A DNA stretch of 32,484 bases, from positions 1 to 32,484 of the forward strand of contig NZ_AWNH01000019.1 in the NCBI RefSeq assembly GCF_000482245.1. Reading direction: 5' to 3'. The translations under genes and the position numbers were made by a program. This stretch comes from Leptolyngbya sp. Heron Island J (GTDB lineage Bacteria > Cyanobacteriota > Cyanobacteriia > Phormidesmidales > Phormidesmidaceae). Position 1 is the first letter of the stretch. Every line of letters starts with the position of its first letter. Below the pieces are notes generated by a model. The model saw nothing but the letters and a program-made list of their open reading frames with translations, ran no database searches and had not been told where the DNA came from. Positions 4,469 to 30,634 of the stretch are shown piece after piece.

Positions 4469-5812
4469 CTATTCCTCCTCATATGCAGGTACTTCAGTTG
4501 CGATCGCTGCTGTTTCCTCTTCCTCAGCAGCAGCGGCTTCTTCAGCTGCCCTTTGCGCCGCCGCTGCCAGGTTCGCCGCTTTAATAGCTTCCATCTGAGC
4601 TGCTAGAGCTGCCGCCGCTTCCTCTTCCTGCTTACGTTTTGCTTCTAGCTGAGCCCGTACTTTTTCATCTTCAGCCTCATAGTCATACTTGGCTGAATCT
4701 TTGATATCGATTTTCCAACCAGTCAGACGTGCCGCGAGACGAACATTCTGTCCTTCCTTACCGATAGCTAAACTGAGCTGATCATCGGGGACTAAAACGT
4801 GTGCCTGACGATCCTCAGGATTCATCAGACGAACCTCATCGACGCGGGCGGGGCTGAGGGCATTGGCAATATAAGTCGCCGGATCCGGAGACCAGCGGAT
4901 AACATCTATTTTTTCACCCCGCAGTTCATTGACAACTACCTGGATGCGAGACCCTCTTGCACCAATACAGGCCCCTACAGGATCAACGTCCCGTTCCAGA
5001 GTGTCTACGGCAATCTTGGTTCTTGGACCAACTGAGCGCGATGGCGGATTAGCTTCCCGTGCGACGGCAACGATACGCACCACCTCGTCCTCGATTTCGG
5101 GGACTTCATTAGAGAATAGCTCGACCACAAGGCTAGCATCGGCCCGAGAGACCAGAAGCTGGGGGCCACGATGGGAACCCTCTGAAACTTTCTTTAGAGC
5201 GACGCGGAATGTAGCATTAGCTCGATAGTTATCATTCGGTAGCTGATCGCGCTTAAGCAACTCCGCCTCTACGTCAGGTTGGCCCACGCCGCTGCTAACG
5301 GCCATAATCACGGACTGACGTTCAAACCGCAGAACTCGCGCTTGTAGGATAGTGCCTTCTAGATCTTGAAATTCTTCCTGAATCAGACGCCGCTGCTGAT
5401 CGCGCAGTTTTTGAGCTAACACCTGTTTGGTTTGAATGGCGGCCATCCGACCAAAATCCCGTTGCTCTGGCGTAACGTCGAGGACGACTTCGTCGCCAAC
5501 CTGGGCCTCTGGCGCAACTTCGACCACTTCCGCCAAAGAAATTTGATGATCGGGGTTTTCAACTGCCTCGACAATCATCTTGCTAGATAAGACTCTAAAG
5601 CCTTCTTCTTCAGGATCTAACTCGATTGAAAAATTATCGAAATAGTCTTCATCAAATTGAGCACTATCCATGCGGCGAGTACGGCGATAACGCTCGTACC
5701 CTTTGAGAAGAGCCTCGCGCAAGGCTTGTTCTACGGCGGAACGCGGTAGATTCCGCTCGCGGCTAATGCCCTCGATCATTTCTTGTAGGCTTGGCAGACT
5801 AACCATGGACAT
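4469..5812 (-). CDS. nusA: Transcription termination/antitermination factor NusA
   Basis: NusA binds RNA polymerase and nascent RNA and controls pausing, intrinsic termination and antitermination. The 447 residues comprise an N-terminal polymerase-binding domain (about 1-130), an S1 domain (about 135-205) and two KH domains. KH1 has GACIGARGSRI near residue 280 and KH2 has LAIGKEGQNVRLAA near 350. The protein ends in an Ala/Glu-rich, probably helical or disordered tail, and lacks the E. coli-type acidic repeats, as is normal outside proteobacteria. A second in-frame ATG two codons in could also serve as start. It follows rimP by 110 nt and is tightly linked to ylxR. Confidence 0.98.
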   Translation of the reverse strand: MSMVSLPSLQEMIEGISRERNLPRSAVEQALREALLKGYERYRRTRRMDSAQFDEDYFDNFSIELDPEEEGFRVLSSKMIVEAVENPDHQISLAEVVEVAPEAQVGDEVVLDVTPEQRDFGRMAAIQTKQVLAQKLRDQQRRLIQEEFQDLEGTILQARVLRFERQSVIMAVSSGVGQPDVEAELLKRDQLPNDNYRANATFRVALKKVSEGSHRGPQLLVSRADASLVVELFSNEVPEIEDEVVRIVAVAREANPPSRSVGPRTKIAVDTLERDVDPVGACIGARGSRIQVVVNELRGEKIDVIRWSPDPATYIANALSPARVDEVRLMNPEDRQAHVLVPDDQLSLAIGKEGQNVRLAARLTGWKIDIKDSAKYDYEAEDEKVRAQLEAKRKQEEEAAAALAAQMEAIKAANLAAAAQRAAEEAAAAEEEETAAIATEVPAYEEE

Positions 5813-5922
5813 GGGCTCTCTTCTCCTTAGACAAATAGACTTTGATGCGCATAAAAGTTAAGAATGATGCTGATTTAGACCTGGTATTCTGGCGTGGCGG
5901 TTATCAGCGTATTGATCCATGG

Positions 5923-6393
5923 CTATGCTTCAACTTGATTGCTTAGCTGGACCGTTTCTATTAGCTCATTGGGTAAGGCAACACGCCGACCTCGTTGACT
6001 AATGGCGAGTTTGTTGTCTGTTCGTTCTAACAATGTACCTACCCATACCTTTTTGCCTTTATGGGGAGTATGCAGCGTGACTTCAATGGCAAACCCCTTG
6101 AAAACGATAAAGTCGCGCTCGGTCTGGAGCTGATTAGAAACTCCAGGGCTGGAAACTTCTAGAACATATGCATCTGGCAGAGTGTTAGAGATTTCTAGGG
6201 CTTCACCTAATGCAATGCTCATCCGTTCGCAATCATTGAGACTGGTATCTTCTTGTGTGAGGTTACGAACGTCAACGCGTAAAACCGGTGGGGTATGGTT
6301 GGTTTGAAAAACTGCGCCCACCACCTCCAACCCCAAGTCAGTGGCGATGGGGGTAGCTATTTCAAGGACCTGTGGAATAACAGGATGAGCCAT
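5923..6393 (-). CDS. rimP: Ribosome maturation factor RimP
   Basis: RimP assists 30S subunit maturation and is encoded immediately upstream of nusA in most bacteria. The start chosen is the ATG at 6393 (MAHPVIPQVLEIATP), giving 156 residues, the usual length. The longer reading from 6453 would add 20 hydrophobic residues unlike the family and would translate through a terminator-like hairpin. Visible features are the N-terminal domain with LGLEVVGAVF and VLRVDVRN, the segment CERMSIALGEALE, and YVLEVSSPGV before the C-terminal SH3-like domain. No good ribosome-binding site precedes the start. The gene leads the rimP-nusA-ylxR-infB cluster, and the hairpin at 6422-6444 may control it. Confidence 0.95.
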   Translation of the reverse strand: MAHPVIPQVLEIATPIATDLGLEVVGAVFQTNHTPPVLRVDVRNLTQEDTSLNDCERMSIALGEALEISNTLPDAYVLEVSSPGVSNQLQTERDFIVFKGFAIEVTLHTPHKGKKVWVGTLLERTDNKLAISQRGRRVALPNELIETVQLSNQVEA

Positions 6394-6408
6394 GGACACG
6401 TAGTAAAT

Positions 6409-6444
6409 TAAACAAAATAAAAAGTGGGCCTTAAGGTCCCACTT
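6409..6444 (-). terminator. Intrinsic terminator or attenuator immediately before rimP
   Basis: On the minus strand AAGTGGG and CCCACTT (6422-6444) form a 7-bp stem extended by an inner CC/GG with a TTAA loop. It is followed by TTTATTTTGTTT. The structure ends only about 28 nt before the rimP ATG. It either terminates the upstream epimerase gene or attenuates rimP-nusA transcription. Confidence 0.7.
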
Positions 6445-6482
6445 CCGACACAATCATTCTTGAACTGGGGCAGTCAGGGGCC

Positions 6483-6516
6483 AGTCAAAAGTTGACTTAA
6501 ATAGTACTAGTACTAT
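6483..6516. promoter_or_regulatory. Two tandem dyads in the rimP upstream region
   Basis: AGTCAA-AAG-TTGACT (6483-6497) is a perfect 6-bp inverted repeat. A perfect 16-bp palindrome, ATAGTACTAGTACTAT, lies 3 nt further on (6501-6516). Both lie between the epimerase stop and the rimP hairpin. On the minus strand TTGACT could also be a -35 box. Operator function is inferred. Confidence 0.45.
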
Positions 6517-6539
6517 GGGCCTTTGCCGCGTTACACAGT

Positions 6540-7538
6540 TTAGCGTGTTTTTCTTTGCTTTGATTCAATCCCCGTTGCTTGAAAAAGATCGGCCACTGTG
6601 GTGCAGTAGTTGTCGATGCCGAAACTGGCAGGGGTCAGGGGATTTTGATAAGTAAAGTGACGATACTTTAAACAAAAACGATCCCAATCCTCCATGCGCA
6701 CCTTAAAGAGCTTGATAAAAAAGTCAATCAGGCTTTGAGAAAGGGGAATTTGAAAGTAAATGGAGCGGCCAAGATAATGACTGACGGCAGCAACGGCATC
6801 GTCCACTGCCAGGGCCGAATTGCCTAATACCAGTTCCCTGGAATCGCCTGCTTGGGGACTATGGTCTACTAGGTAAGTGACAACCGTAGCAACATCTTTG
6901 GCGTGAATAAAGTGCAGGGTGCCGTCAGCACTGAAAAATCGAATTAGGTCGATCCATTTGGTAACTTCCGTCAACCCGCTGGATATATGGGAATAGGGTT
7001 TGTTGGTATCACCACCAAAAACGAGGGTAGGGAAGAGGGTGGTGATGTTTGGGAAAATTGCTAAATCTTTGAGCTTTTGATGGCACTGATATTTGCTGCG
7101 AATATAGTCGAAGGATACTTGACCTGCTTCTCGGAGGGGTTGGTTTTGGCGGTCTAAAATGCTGGCTGTTGAAAAGTAAAGTACCTGACGAATTCGATCT
7201 GGATCGAGCAGGGTCATTAGCTTTAAGTTAGCCGTGACATTGATGTCATAAATTGCGGGTGCGCCTCCCCAAGATGTGGCGATGAGGATGGCGGTATCTA
7301 TTGTGCCTAGCAGATCAGAGAATTGCTCTATTTCGCGGATATCGCCTTGCAGGATATGAACTCTGGATTGATTGGTGACGTCTAGCTGTAGTTTGTCAGG
7401 GTTGCGCAACAGCAGGAAAAGTTCGTGCTCGCTGTTTTGAATTAGGCTTTCAAGGACATAATGGCCAATACAGCCACTGGCACCAGTAATAAAAATTCTC
7501 TGCGGTGACGATGGGATGGCTTGTACCAGTTGACTCAC
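6540..7538 (-). CDS. NAD(P)-dependent epimerase/dehydratase family protein (extended SDR)
   Basis: This is a 332-residue extended short-chain dehydrogenase/reductase. The nucleotide-binding glycine motif GASGCIG lies at residues 19-25, after the first beta strand (RIFITGASGCIG). The catalytic YxxxK appears as YIRSK in the middle. The segment ILQGDIREIEQF with a following Asp/Ile strand fits the Rossmann fold. The C-terminal half (FIHAKDVATVVTYLV, then LVLGN) is the usual substrate-binding lobe. The substrate cannot be told from sequence; nucleotide sugars, flavonoid-like compounds and quinone-related steps all occur in the family. It sits between hemE and rimP on the same strand, 168 nt from hemE, with no functional link evident. 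Confidence 0.88.
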   Translation of the reverse strand: MSQLVQAIPSSPQRIFITGASGCIGHYVLESLIQNSEHELFLLLRNPDKLQLDVTNQSRVHILQGDIREIEQFSDLLGTIDTAILIATSWGGAPAIYDINVTANLKLMTLLDPDRIRQVLYFSTASILDRQNQPLREAGQVSFDYIRSKYQCHQKLKDLAIFPNITTLFPTLVFGGDTNKPYSHISSGLTEVTKWIDLIRFFSADGTLHFIHAKDVATVVTYLVDHSPQAGDSRELVLGNSALAVDDAVAAVSHYLGRSIYFQIPLSQSLIDFFIKLFKVRMEDWDRFCLKYRHFTYQNPLTPASFGIDNYCTTVADLFQATGIESKQRKTR

Positions 7539-25643: not shown

Positions 25644-26534
25644 GTGATGATGACTAAGTCGACTGCATTTTTGAGGGTTGCGATCGCAACTACTATTCTC
25701 TTAGCAGGTGAGATCGCGCCTGCTAGCGCCAAAGTAAGAGTTCTAGATTTTGAAAAAGATGCCCTGGGTAATGACCTGAGTGGAGGTACTCAAATTCATG
25801 ATGATTGGGCGGACTGGGGCCTCACTATCACCGGCAAAAACTACAAAACTGGTAATAATAATGCGCCTCTACTGCTCTATGACACCAGTAAGTCTGGGGC
25901 AGACAACGATTTGCGTACTGGCACAACCTGGGGCACCGTCAACCAAGGCAATGCCCTCATCATTCAGGAATATAACAATGGCAGCTATAACCTGCATAAA
26001 CCTGATGATGAGGCACAAGGCGGTCATGTTTGGTTCAAATTTGAGCAAGAAATTGGGTTTCAAAAGTTTTCCTTGCTCGATATCGACGATAACTTTGGAG
26101 ATGCTGCCGGTACTCAAGTCCGTGTCATTGGCAAAAATGCCGATGATAAGAAAGTTCTAGATATTAATGTCGACGATCTAATTAGACGATTTGCAGATAC
26201 CTATACCAATCCGGATCACACCAAAAGTCAGGGTAAATCCCTGACCCATTCGTATACCAACGGTCTGGGCGAAGATATCGATGTCACTATTACCCAAGTC
26301 GGTAATAAGCGTGACGATAACTCAATGTTTGAGTTTAAGTTCGACGAAGCTACGGTCCAGAAAATCAAATTTCAGTACAACGGGGTTAGTGGAGCCATTG
26401 CAGATTTACAGTGGGATGACCATACGACTGAAGAACCACCACAGCTACCAGAACCCTCCGTCAGCCTTGGACTCATGATGATGGGGTTGGTTGGTTCTTG
26501 GCAGTTTTTCACAAGGCGTCCGCAGCCAGATTAA
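25644..26534 (+). CDS. PEP-CTERM sorting domain-containing protein
   Basis: A secreted protein of about 295 residues. The N-terminal signal peptide has the hydrophobic stretch [21 protein letters not shown] with a likely cut after Ala-Ser-Ala. The mature part is Asn/Asp/Gly-rich and probably all-beta, beginning [20 protein letters not shown], in the style of carbohydrate- or calcium-binding extracellular domains. The C-terminus is a PEP-CTERM signal: LPEPS, a hydrophobic helix, then FFTRR. Exosortase cleaves and anchors such proteins during export, often together with exopolysaccharide. The GTG at 25644 is followed by two ATG codons (25647, 25650), either of which may be the start. The stop overlaps that of the convergent dehydrogenase gene. 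Confidence 0.88.
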
Positions 26535-27643
26535 TCAAAAGTTACGACACTGCGAATTGACTGGCCTGTATGCATCACATCAAAAGCCTCGTTAATTTGC
26601 TCAAGTGGAAAAGTGTGGGTGATCAGGTCGTCAATGTTGATCTTGCCATTCATATACCAATCCACAATTTTAGGAACATCGGTACGGCCTCTGGCTCCAC
26701 CAAACGCCGTACCTTTCCACACTCGTCCCGTGACTAATTGAAACGGGCGCGTTGCAATTTCCTGACCTGAGGCAGCTACACCGATGATGATGCTTTCACC
26801 CCAGCCCTTATGGCAGCACTCTAATGCTTGGCGCATCACCTGCACATTGCCAATGCACTCAAAGGTATAGTCAGCCCCACCTTTGGTTAAATCCACCAGG
26901 TAAGGGACTAAATCTCCATCCACGTCTTGGGGATTGACAAAATGGGTCATGCCAAACTTTTCTGCTAGGGCTTTTTTCCCAGGGTTAAGATCGACCCCAA
27001 TAATCATGTCTGCCCCCACCAAACGGCAGCCCTGGATCACATTCAGGCCAATACCCCCCAGTCCAAATACGATTACATTGGCACCTGGCTCTACCTTGGC
27101 AGTATTAATCACAGCCCCAATTCCCGTTGTGACCCCGCAGCCAACGTAGCAAACCTTATCAAAGGGGGCATCTTCTCGAATTTTAGCTAGGGCGATCTCA
27201 GGTACAACGGTATAGTTGGCAAACGTTGAGGTCCCCATGTAGTGATAAATCGATTCATTTCCCAACCGAAAGCGACGAGTGCCATCGGGCATGAGCCCGC
27301 GACCTTGAGTACTTCGAATCGCCTGGCATAGGTTGGTTTTACCGCTCAAACAATACTCACAGGCACGGCACTCCGGCACATAGAGAGGGATGACATGATC
27401 GCCAGGCTTCAGGCTTTTGACATCATCACCTACGTCAACAACTACACCAGCTCCTTCATGCCCCAAAATGGCTGGAAATAAGCCTTCTGGATCTTTACCT
27501 GAAAGGGTATAAGCATCAGTGTGACAAACACCTGTAGCCTTGATCTCAACCAACACTTCACCAGCTTTCGGCCCATCTAACGTCAGCGTTTCTATTGTTA
27601 GGGGTTGACCAGCCTGATGAGCAACAGCGGCTCTCACTTCCAT
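26531..27643 (-). CDS. frmA: S-(hydroxymethyl)glutathione dehydrogenase / class III alcohol dehydrogenase
   Basis: This zinc- and NAD-dependent enzyme oxidises S-hydroxymethylglutathione (formaldehyde plus glutathione) and also reduces S-nitrosoglutathione. The 370-residue length fits class III. The catalytic zinc ligands are in [11 protein letters not shown] and LGHEGAG, with the later Cys in [13 protein letters not shown]. The four structural-zinc cysteines are in [15 protein letters not shown]. The NAD-binding glycine motif is GLGGIG followed by DLNPGKK. It is encoded alone, downstream of the ParA-like pair on the same strand (119-nt gap). Its stop codon overlaps that of the convergent PEP-CTERM gene by 4 nt. 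Confidence 0.95.
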
Positions 27644-27762: not shown

Positions 27763-28389
27763 TTAATCAACCCAGCCAATATCATCATCAGAGAGCATAC
27801 TATTCTGTTCGCCTCGTTGGATGGCATATTCTGGAATAGCTTTGTATCCGCTGGGGCGATTGCGTAAACTTAACGTATTGCGGTTAGTCGCTAGATCAGC
27901 CCCATGGATAACTTTGGGTGGTGTGGCTTCTGGCTCAGGAGTCTCCTCTTTTTGGGCTGTGATCTGCCGAATTGTATCCTTGGCGGTTTCAAGTTCTTCA
28001 GTAGCCTTGGTCAGTGCATCAGTTTTTTCTACTGTGGCCTTTTGTGCCGCGTCTAAATCATCCTTGAGTTCAAAGATCCGAGCTTGATGAGTTTTCAGAT
28101 CATCCTGTAGCTCAACAATCTGTTCCTGAGCCTGTTTGAGAGCCCCTTCTAAATCAGCTATCTGCTTTTCCAGGGCCACTGTGTTGCTAGCCTTTCCAGT
28201 AGGAGCTTTGGATGTAGTTGATGCTTTGCTTGTACGTTTCCTTGTCCGACCTGTCCCTGTAGCTGCTTTCTTGGGTGTGTCGGAGCTTGTCTGGGTTTCC
28301 TGAGATACGTCTTCTACTGGAGCTTCTGCAGCCTCGTTCGATTTTTTGACTTCTTCTTTGAGCAGGTCGGCAATGCGTTTTTTTGTCAT
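27763..28389 (-). CDS. Coiled-coil partner of a ParA ATPase (candidate McdB-like protein)
   Basis: A 208-residue protein with three zones. Residues 1-70 are charged, Lys/Thr/Ser-rich and probably disordered (MTKKRIADLLKEEVKK at the start, RTRKRTSKAST in the middle). Residues 72-148 form a long coiled coil. The C-terminal zone, 155-208, ends in DDDIGWVD with Trp206 three residues from the end. The start overlaps the stop of the upstream ParA gene by 4 nt (ATGA), so the two are translationally coupled. Published McdB proteins, the adaptors that link carboxysomes to the ParA-type ATPase McdA, share a disordered basic N-terminus, central coiled coil and a C-terminal tryptophan. That identity is an inference; other ParA cargo adaptors remain possible. 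Confidence 0.85.
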   Translation of the reverse strand: MTKKRIADLLKEEVKKSNEAAEAPVEDVSQETQTSSDTPKKAATGTGRTRKRTSKASTTSKAPTGKASNTVALEKQIADLEGALKQAQEQIVELQDDLKTHQARIFELKDDLDAAQKATVEKTDALTKATEELETAKDTIRQITAQKEETPEPEATPPKVIHGADLATNRNTLSLRNRPSGYKAIPEYAIQRGEQNSMLSDDDIGWVD

Positions 28390-29042
28390 AATCTTTTCCA
28401 GTCCCTGAGAACTTCAGCAGCAACTCGATAGTAGTCGGCCTGTGCTTCCTGAGCATTTGGCCCTTTCCATTGACTGATAGCGCAACCTTCCATAGCAGCT
28501 CGTTCGTGGGCTTTATAAGTCCGTATGTATGTTTGAAAAGCCGAAATATCTAGCTCCTCCAGCATGATTTGAGCTTCTTGCGCTTCCTTTAAACTACGGG
28601 AATCAACCTTTGTCAGCAATACCCGGTGAAAAACCCCAGAGGGTTGAACAATCGTTTTAACAGTTGTGATCAATGCGGTCACGTCCATTGGCGCTGGTGG
28701 TGTAGGCAATAGTAGATAATCTGCCAATTGGATTACAGCACCTAAGGAATTAGAGTGTAGCGCTGGTGGCGTATCGATCACAATTAGTTCGTAGTCAGCA
28801 AGGGTCTTCAGCTGCTCCAGCATTGCGATATCGGTTTCGTGAGAAAAATCAAATGCCTGATGTACCCGCTCCAACCACCAAGTTGCAGACCGCTGGAGAT
28901 CGCTATCTATCAATAAGACGCGCCGATCTTCTGCAAAAATTGCAGCCAAATTAACGGCAGTGGTTGTTTTGCCTACGCCCCCTTTTCCATTCAGAATCAC
29001 AAGGACTTTAGGAGCTATCTGCTTCCCTTTTACCTTAGCCAC
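28386..29042 (-). CDS. ParA/MinD family ATPase (candidate McdA-like)
   Basis: A 218-residue ParA-type P-loop ATPase. The deviant Walker A box is NGKGGVGKTT with both Lys20 and Lys25. Switch I/A' is LLIDSDLQRSATWW, and Walker B is ELIVIDTPPAL. The segment near 120-150 (PPAPMDVTALITT) and the basic C-terminal end fit ParA proteins that bind DNA non-specifically when ATP-bound. There is no helix-turn-helix extension, so it is a small type-Ib-like ParA. Its stop overlaps the start of a coiled-coil protein, as with McdA/McdB pairs; Type 2 McdA keeps the signature Lys seen here. Plasmid partition is less likely since the neighbours are chromosomal housekeeping genes and no parS-like repeats are evident. 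Confidence 0.94.
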   Translation of the reverse strand: MAKVKGKQIAPKVLVILNGKGGVGKTTTAVNLAAIFAEDRRVLLIDSDLQRSATWWLERVHQAFDFSHETDIAMLEQLKTLADYELIVIDTPPALHSNSLGAVIQLADYLLLPTPPAPMDVTALITTVKTIVQPSGVFHRVLLTKVDSRSLKEAQEAQIMLEELDISAFQTYIRTYKAHERAAMEGCAISQWKGPNAQEAQADYYRVAAEVLRDWKRL

Positions 29043-29109
29043 GACTCATTACAGTAATAGGACCCTAGTGTTAGGTGTTGATCGTCAAGATAGATGAGTT
29101 TGGCTGCAT

Positions 29110-29739
29110 CTAAACCTCAACCTCTCGCCCATTGTAAAGACTCATGGCTCGTTCGATACCTTTACGTAAGCTAAACTCTATGGCCTCGTCTGCAAGATTG
29201 ACAGCGGCATCCATCACCTTGCGCTCATCTGGGGCAAATTTACCAAGAACATGCCCTACAACGACCTGATTGGCCTGGCTTTCTAAGTTATTAGCCCGAC
29301 TGATTCCCAAGCGTAGTCTAGGAAAGGTTTGGGTGCCCAGGTGAGAAATAATTGATTTCATTCCATTATGCCCACCGGCTGAACCTGACAGGCGCAGACG
29401 CAGTTTGCCTATAGGTAGGTCCATGTCGTCATAAATGATCAGCACATCACTTGGTGATAACTTGTACCAATCAACGACAGCTCGCACCGCCTGACCAGAT
29501 CGATTCATATATGTGTTGGGCTTGAGCAAAATAAGACGATCACCCGCCGCAGTACGAGTTTCGCCGACACTCCCGTGGAACCGCTTATGATTGGTTAGTT
29601 GTATTGCCCAACTCTTGGCCAGGCTATCTATGACTTCAAAGCCAATATTGTGCCGTGTACGCGCATACTTTTGGCCAGGATTACCCAGTCCAACTAGCAA
29701 TTTTGGCGCTGGTAGAGAATCAGTATTTGTAGTCGCCAT
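29110..29739 (-). CDS. pth: Peptidyl-tRNA hydrolase
   Basis: Pth frees tRNA from peptidyl-tRNA that drops off the ribosome. The 209 residues begin with a short extension, then LLVGLGNPGQKYARTRHNIGF, with catalytic His30 in the RHNIGF motif. LKPNTYMNRSGQAV, IIYDDMDLPIGKLR and GSAGGHNGMKSI carry the other conserved Asn, Asp and His residues. FPRLRLGI follows, as in the family. It lies 67 nt upstream of the ParA gene and 168 nt downstream of tatA on the same strand, in a loose cluster. Confidence 0.97.
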   Translation of the reverse strand: MATTNTDSLPAPKLLVGLGNPGQKYARTRHNIGFEVIDSLAKSWAIQLTNHKRFHGSVGETRTAAGDRLILLKPNTYMNRSGQAVRAVVDWYKLSPSDVLIIYDDMDLPIGKLRLRLSGSAGGHNGMKSIISHLGTQTFPRLRLGISRANNLESQANQVVVGHVLGKFAPDERKVMDAAVNLADEAIEFSLRKGIERAMSLYNGREVEV

Positions 29740-29907: not shown

Positions 29908-30222
29908 CTAGGCAGTCTTATCAGTAGCGATGTTGGAGTCATTCTCGGTTACCTGACTTTCATCAGCTGTTTCGGGCTCTGGCTGAAGTGCTTTTGGTTC
30001 AGCTTTTTCCAAAGTTGCTTTCATTGGCTCAGCAACAGTTTTCTCGATGCGAGCAGCTTCTTTCTTAAATTCGTCTTCAAACTCTTTAGAAGCGTCCTGA
30101 AATCCTTTGATAGCCTTACCCAGGCTACGACCTATTTCAGGTAGCTTTTTGGGGCCAAATACCAACAAGGCAACCATCATAATTAGAGCCATCTCTGGCA
30201 GACCAATGCCAAAAATATTCAT
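29908..30222 (-). CDS. tatA: Twin-arginine translocase subunit TatA/TatE
   Basis: TatA multimers form the passage of the twin-arginine system for folded proteins across cytoplasmic and thylakoid membranes. The 104-residue protein has an N-terminal membrane helix (LPEMALIMMVALLVF), the hinge FGPKKLPEIG and an amphipathic helix (RSLGKAIKGFQDA). A charged, disordered Glu/Ala/Pro-rich tail completes it. The absence of TatB-specific features fits the single TatA type found in cyanobacteria. The gene lies between psbH and pth on the same strand, each with sizable spacing. Confidence 0.93.
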   Translation of the reverse strand: MNIFGIGLPEMALIMMVALLVFGPKKLPEIGRSLGKAIKGFQDASKEFEDEFKKEAARIEKTVAEPMKATLEKAEPKALQPEPETADESQVTENDSNIATDKTA

Positions 30223-30430: not shown

Positions 30431-30634
30431 CTAGAAGCTTAAGCCACGCCAATCCACGTCAACTCCCTGAATTTGAATAGAGTTATTGTAAAGCTGCAGA
30501 ATGATGAGTAAGAAAACAAGGAAAAGCGCCATAAATACTCCCATTAAAGGAGTAGTACCCCAGCCGGGGGCGACTTTACCGTATTCAGAGTTCAAAGGTT
30601 TAAGAAGATTTCCCAACCGAGTTTGCTGTGCCAT
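30431..30634 (-). CDS. psbH: Photosystem II reaction centre protein H
   Basis: PsbH is a single-pass thylakoid protein beside CP47 that supports the quinone-A to quinone-B step and bicarbonate binding. The 67 residues show the family layout: N-terminal stromal part ([22 protein letters not shown]), [20 protein letters not shown] as membrane helix, and a C-terminal [12 protein letters not shown] tail. It is divergent from psbN, with 76 nt between the starts, which matches other cyanobacteria. It has its own terminator and thus probably a monocistronic message. Confidence 0.97.

Follow-up and report, generated by a model that had tools for sequence, protein, structure and literature searches.

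A pair of overlapping genes in Leptolyngbya sp. Heron Island J very probably encodes, as judged from sequence, a β-McdAB Type 2 carboxysome-positioning system, comprising the ParA-family ATPase McdA and its adaptor McdB. The genes lie on the minus strand of a 32,484-nucleotide stretch of DNA, which was analysed as a whole (the window). Such a pair was to be expected in a family already known, although its Leptolyngbya-like host lineage has been little studied. What makes it valuable is the comparison that it opens: the nearest relatives of McdA found outside the family are plasmid ParAs, and the partners of these match McdB at the N-terminus only.

The ATPase gene, mcdA (Type 2-like), spans positions 28386–29042, starts with GTG and encodes 218 aa that match the AAA_31, CbiA and ParA families in Pfam. 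It is followed directly downstream by mcdB (Type 2-like; 27763–28389), which starts with ATG and encodes an adaptor of 208 aa. The two genes overlap by four nucleotides (ATGA), with the mcdB start placed inside the last ATPase codons, and an operon is predicted from this layout. Both reading frames and the overlap are as the earlier note had given them, and so is the full deviant Walker A box of the ParA protein. Here, KGGVGKT occupies residues 20–26 (28965–28985, minus strand), both lysines are present, including the signature lysine K20, and the motif is invariant across an 18-row alignment. There is no large mid-protein extension, and the AlphaFold2 model (pLDDT 87.2) aligns to ParF chains of 204–211 aa. 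The best PDB matches are ParF of plasmid TP228 (4dzz, 4e07, 5u1g) and 3cwq, a Synechocystis ParA, which share the compact ParA fold of the ATPase with TM-scores (query) of 0.78–0.84 but are only 23–32% identical to it. ParG, the partner of ParF, binds DNA and is a centromere-binding protein (PMC9178275). The solved Cyanothece 'McdA' (6non, 6noo and 6nop, the name being that of the depositors for 6noo) also has the ParA fold, but 6non and 6nop are only 21–23% identical to the ATPase model and score 40–44 bits with phmmer. The solved protein is much more distant from the ATPase than are the Thermus plasmid ParAs described below (21–23% versus about 58%).

The partner belongs to a fast-diverging family. 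An alignment of 15 partners has just three invariant positions, M1, E13 and W206, and the 14 other sequences are no more than 18–35% identical to the window's protein. As McdBs diverge too fast, a search with the partner's own sequence found 5 of 194 genomes, and partners elsewhere were searched for via the ATPase first and then with a 15-row McdB profile. Disorder is high, with 118 of 208 residues at pLDDT below 70 (pLDDT being used as a proxy) and a GRAVY of −0.92, and the AlphaFold2 model built on the 15-row alignment has a mean pLDDT of 67.9 and a pTM of 0.33. The N-terminal segment (residues 1–19; 28333–28389, minus strand) is charged (MTKKRIADLLKEEVKK). This end of the protein had been described as disordered and basic; it is basic, and residues 22–61 are modelled at low confidence, but it opens with a short predicted helix at residues 6–19. 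The motif found here is conserved in McdBs and common to plasmid partners, and residues 1–19 are probably the McdA-binding and -activating segment. A coiled coil had been claimed at residues 72–148, and its location was right: AlphaFold2 shows one confident helix over residues 66–149 (27943–28194, minus strand), including a block of pLDDT 85–98 over residues 71–150. The tail that follows residue 149 is mostly of low confidence and ends, as described earlier, in the acidic-Trp sequence DDDIGWVD (27766–27789, minus strand). Trp206 (codon 27772–27774) is third from the end and is the single Trp of the protein. This tail is probably the carboxysome-shell-binding motif.

Type 2 systems have been described as having a full ParA lysine, no mid-protein extension, a charged N-terminus, a central coiled coil, a C-terminal Trp, disorder and a Q-rich centre (PMC8262871, section 6), and the tail of β-McdB as being D-rich and Trp-invariant (PMC11321042). 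The assignment to Type 2, already proposed in the earlier note, agrees with nearly every one of the section 6 sequence features. The weak one is the glutamine-rich centre: the partner has 13 Q in 208 residues, five of them in residues 79–104, and the middle thirds of 24 orthologs contain 6–25% Q. McdB of PCC 7002 is a named Type 2 example (PMC8262871). The window's pair and that of Synechococcus/Picosynechococcus sp. PCC 7002 have in common the ParA lysine, the lack of an extension, an adjacent mcdB, the charged N-terminus, the coiled coil and the acidic-Trp tail; they differ in that the window's pair is sited after psbH-tatA-pth and is weakly enriched in glutamine. Picosynechococcus sp. PCC 7117 (G052), which is of the same genus as PCC 7002, has an adjacent pair, and its tail, like that of G077, is EEIGWFD. 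The Type 1 system of S. elongatus PCC 7942 shares the proposed mechanism and a C-terminal Trp in McdB, but Type 1 McdA is without the signature lysine and is enlarged by a long extension in its middle part (PMC8262871), whereas the window's ATPase has the lysine and a compact fold. In addition, the partner matches no other adaptor family at the curated cut-offs of Pfam and NCBIfam, a match to another ParA adaptor family being an outcome that the earlier note had named as a refutation. A second clear McdAB in the same genome, raised earlier as a complication, was absent from the ParA-type loci examined (the 60 best of 33 + 35 matches, 30 from each, plus L001–L008).

The ATPase and a W-tailed partner are found together across the phylum. 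In a sample of 194 genomes drawn from it, the ATPase occurs at the ortholog cut-off of E ≤ 2.6e-69 in 35, with 54–65% identity in the 34 besides the window's own; a degraded copy in G177 scores 7e-40, and all further matches are at 2e-28 or weaker. All 35 genomes encode a W-tailed partner, which is adjacent in 29 (the window, 24 of the 29 loci L021–L049, and G052, G054, G077 and G005) and lies elsewhere in the genome in six (G014, G083, G089, G091, G173 and G151). In these six, McdB was identified by profile with E-values of 1e-26 to 2e-6 and keeps its Trp tail (e.g. DDIGWFD, NSTWLL). The persistence of separated mcdA and mcdB in six genomes adds evidence that the two proteins work jointly. 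The split mcdA genes are at L029, L032, L039, L040, L045 and L197 and the mcdB genes at separate sites, L236–L241; in G089 and G091, mcdB is about 23–26 kb from ccmM.

A named set of 85 related loci, whose genomes overlap with the 194-genome sample, consists of the best 80 of at least 419 relatives and five stretches from the first set. Here, an adjacent W-tailed partner is present at 84 loci; the Trp is the fourth residue from the end at 46 of these and the third at 38. Although identity among the aligned partners is low, this recurrence exceeds chance. This count combines 62 partners found by script with 16 and 6 by reading, and a single-script recount also gave 84. The lone exception is L197 of G151, itself one of the six split genomes. 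Among the best 80 of at least 419, the nearest named relatives of the ATPase are those of Leptolyngbya sp. PCC 7375 (91%), Adonisia turfae (90%) and L. cf. ectocarpi (89%). The minus-strand neighbours of the window's pair are pth (29110–29739), tatA (29908–30222) and psbH (30431–30634) upstream and a zinc alcohol/formaldehyde dehydrogenase-like gene (26531–27643) downstream, all named by reading of their translations. The order psbH-tatA-pth-mcdAB-dehydrogenase is common to 5 of the 85 loci (L110–L114), which form a small Leptolyngbya/Adonisia group. As pth and mcdA share a strand and are just 67 bases apart (29043–29109), co-transcription of mcdAB with the upstream genes is conceivable in this group.

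The ATPase is linked to genomes with β-carboxysome genes. CcmM is matched in 35/35 ATPase genomes (weakest E 2.7e-61), and the ATPase is present in none of the 12 CsoS2 (α-carboxysome) genomes of the sample, which represent one family and are therefore not 12 independent cases. CcmM matches occur in about 79 genomes of the class, and about 44 of these are without this ATPase. The window's own genome (8.06 Mb in 119 contigs) has rbcL and a ccmK-K-L-M-N-O locus on contig C38, away from the pair, where the names of the non-BMC genes are readings; its BMC matches are this locus and two further single-domain matches. The earlier note had placed Type 2 pairs away from ccm genes. This holds in the window's own genome, but 20 of the 85 loci have two ccmK-type genes (three in L170) behind the pair on the same strand, starting 0.8–3.8 kb after mcdA. 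In Nostoc sp. WHI (L155:5010–7209), no same-strand ORF of at least 80 aa lies between mcdB and the ccmK genes. Judged by their sequences, the two genes are presumably ccmK3 and ccmK4. A ccmK3-ccmK4 pair has been reported as a satellite locus in 194 species (PMC5853843), which also supports this naming. With three BMC-gene contigs in an 8-Mb genome, simple arithmetic puts the chance of such a neighbour at about 0.4% per 10-kb window. All 20 ccmK-linked loci are from Nostocales, an assignment checked for two of the families. In the tree, the linked loci fall in three places of one 44-row Nostocales clade (100/97), 24 rows of which are without ccmK in the stretch examined, so that the linkage may be a single ancestral one.

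The pair has decayed in two diatom endosymbionts. EtSB and RgSB are the spheroid bodies of Epithemia turgida and Rhopalodia gibberula, respectively, and are non-photosynthetic (PMC5638926). In both EtSB (G141; L199) and RgSB (G177; L198), mcdA and mcdB are broken (at about 5600–6800), while the pair at the same position in Cyanothece PCC 8801 (G137) is intact. The gene after mcdB, acyltransferase-like by reading, stays open in the two endosymbionts, whose rbcL genes, like the pair, are broken. RgSB has a CcmM fragment that contains a stop, and a search of the EtSB genome for CcmM gave no match. Protein genes number 1,720 in EtSB and 1,671 in RgSB against 4,367 in PCC 8801 (PMC5638926), and this strong reduction gives a high base rate for the decay of any one gene.

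A mechanism can be proposed by analogy with the systems of S. elongatus and H. neapolitanus, from which the cargo and all of the biochemistry set out below are carried over to the present organism. McdA (28386–29042) would bind ATP, dimerise and coat the nucleoid non-specifically. McdB (27763–28389) would dock on carboxysome shells via its acidic-Trp tail and may self-associate via the central coiled coil. Its basic N-terminal helix would then trigger ATP hydrolysis and the release of McdA around each carboxysome, and carboxysomes would move toward the remaining McdA by a diffusion ratchet, thereby becoming spread over the nucleoid. Even spacing of carboxysomes supports carbon fixation and fair carboxysome inheritance. 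In the systems reviewed, McdA-ATP coats the nucleoid, carboxysome-bound McdB releases it and carboxysomes follow the resulting gradient (PMC8262871). In H. neapolitanus, McdB needs its first 20 residues to interact with McdA, and these also suffice, with Lys7 being critical (PMC12204374, a preprint), and the window's McdB has its basic predicted helix in that region. In both model species, McdB associates with carboxysomes only if it has its C-terminal Trp (PMC11321042), and an McdB-like protein of Gloeobacter kilaueensis co-localised with the carboxysomes of S. elongatus even though its identity is low (PMC6328274).

The closest relatives of the ATPase found outside the family are encoded on plasmids. 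A tblastn search against plasmids gave 85 records at E ≤ 1e-20, and the identities given here are those among the 60 listed. Among these, eight Thermus plasmid ParAs are 57–58% identical over 90–94% of the ATPase, and five from cyanobacterial plasmids (Oscillatoria, Geminocystis, Nostoc) are 50–53% identical, as close as some chromosomal McdAs. The gap in score between orthologs and paralogs was considered as proof of McdA identity and was rejected, as the plasmid ParAs of 50–58% identity fall on the ortholog side; the ATPase alone is therefore not diagnostic of McdA. In a 36-row tree, the 20 McdAs are monophyletic (98/95) and sit inside a larger group that otherwise comprises plasmid ParAs and L197, although the base of this group is without resolution and some branches are long.

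The gene after ParA was read in fifteen plasmids, eleven from Thermus or cyanobacteria and four from actinobacteria. In the former (e.g. pTthSNM1-1c, pOSCIL6304.01 and pNe_2) the partner gene overlaps or abuts that of the ATPase, and all eleven partners have an McdB-like start (e.g. MKRKRLAELVREE, MAKARRRLSDLVHEE), recognisable by its [KR]-rich, L[SA][DE]L-like motif. Their C-termini differ from that of McdB: the plasmid proteins have a conserved module, YLxLVRKExRL...RITENTLIRxAVDLLL, in place of the coiled coil and Trp tail. Ten of the fifteen plasmid-side proteins are without any Trp, and in all fifteen the last 15 residues are free of it. The N-terminal likeness was tested using an HMM of 54 McdB N-termini against 3,992 ORF starts from the loci analysed. 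All eleven Thermus and cyanobacterial partners scored better than the best unrelated ORF (E 1e-6 to 0.84 versus 5.4); of the four actinobacterial partners, one was weakly above it (E 2.5) and three were not. For 12 of the 15 proteins, none of 200 shuffled N-termini scored as high as the real one; for the others, 1, 7 and 73 of 200 did. When profiles of McdB and of the plasmid partners were compared, the alignment was confined to 14 N-terminal columns (probability 67%, with E 5e-5 in a single comparison), and the profile of the plasmid C-terminal module gave no alignment to the McdB profile (probability 0.2%). From its sequence the module is plausibly a ribbon-helix-helix DNA binder, and the searches for a ribbon-helix-helix match returned none in Pfam (five partners) or NCBIfam (five partners) and noise only in the PDB.

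These relatives raise the question of whether the pair could be a plasmid-type ParAB, captured by the chromosome and still handling DNA, with the partner binding a centromere and the ATPase moving DNA. The plasmid origin of the nearest outside ATPases, at 50–58% identity, and the McdB motif at the start of the Thermus and cyanobacterial partners speak for this reading. It is nonetheless extremely improbable, because the window's partner is without the conserved C-terminal plasmid module and instead has the Trp tail that the plasmid-side proteins lack. In addition, the window contains the IF-2 and NusA genes, and the confinement of the ATPase to CcmM genomes in the sample and the ccmK genes that follow the pair at 20 loci fit a carboxysome role rather than the partition of DNA.

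A second alternative retains the McdAB-like way of working but assigns it to other protein cargo, such as a condensate, another compartment or a motility complex. Aromatic residues are present at the C-termini of McdB-like proteins of other microcompartments (PMC11321042), which lends this idea some credit. Against it, the aromatic residue in the tail here is Trp and not Tyr or Phe, and the same CcmM-genome association and ccmK neighbours apply, as does the decay of the pair along with rbcL in EtSB and RgSB. The BMC matches in the window's own genome also amount to the C38 ccm locus and the two single-domain matches. Cargo other than carboxysomes is therefore very unlikely.

With carboxysome positioning by a Type 2 McdAB as the preferred reading, the plasmid pairs suggest where it came from. 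Type 2 McdAB is somewhat more probably than otherwise a plasmid partition system whose cargo has been exchanged, where the ATPase and the activating N-terminal helix of the partner were kept, while its C-terminal module gave way to a coiled coil with an acidic-Trp tail that would grip carboxysome shells. The living Thermus and cyanobacterial plasmid pairs, with ATPases 50–58% identical, would be of the donor type. Parsimony favours plasmid partition as a state older than carboxysome positioning, the direction being inferred. A plasmid origin of McdAB is not stated in the passages of PMC8262871 examined, a scope that does not extend to 10.1093/molbev/msz308, a 2020 paper on McdAB evolution. If true, the proposal explains the source of an organelle-positioning system and, through two closely related sets of components, opens to experiment the question of how a ParA machine switches cargo. 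As plasmid pairs of the donor type are still living, the exchange could be re-enacted at the bench by fusion of modules.

Several other loci were noted. In the window's own genome, five ParAs in which SGGxGKT replaces KGGxGKT (L050, L051, L052, L054 and L057) have partners of 148–335 aa without a Trp tail. Candidates for another McdAB that were considered and rejected include two RGGTGKS proteins with a Trp in the last six residues of the partner, these partners reading as a 94-aa winged-helix-like and a 342-aa glutaminase-like protein, and two short, chance ORFs with a Trp in the last six residues that follow ParA-type ORFs. Beyond the dehydrogenase-like gene, a 296-aa protein (25644–26534) with no Pfam match at E ≤ 1e-5 has, by reading of its sequence, a signal-like start and a C-terminal PEP-CTERM-like segment. 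Lastly, a CcmM-like match in another genome (G046:C1:2888000–2889172) falls in an open frame of 24,396 aa, which is probably a masked run or an assembly artefact.
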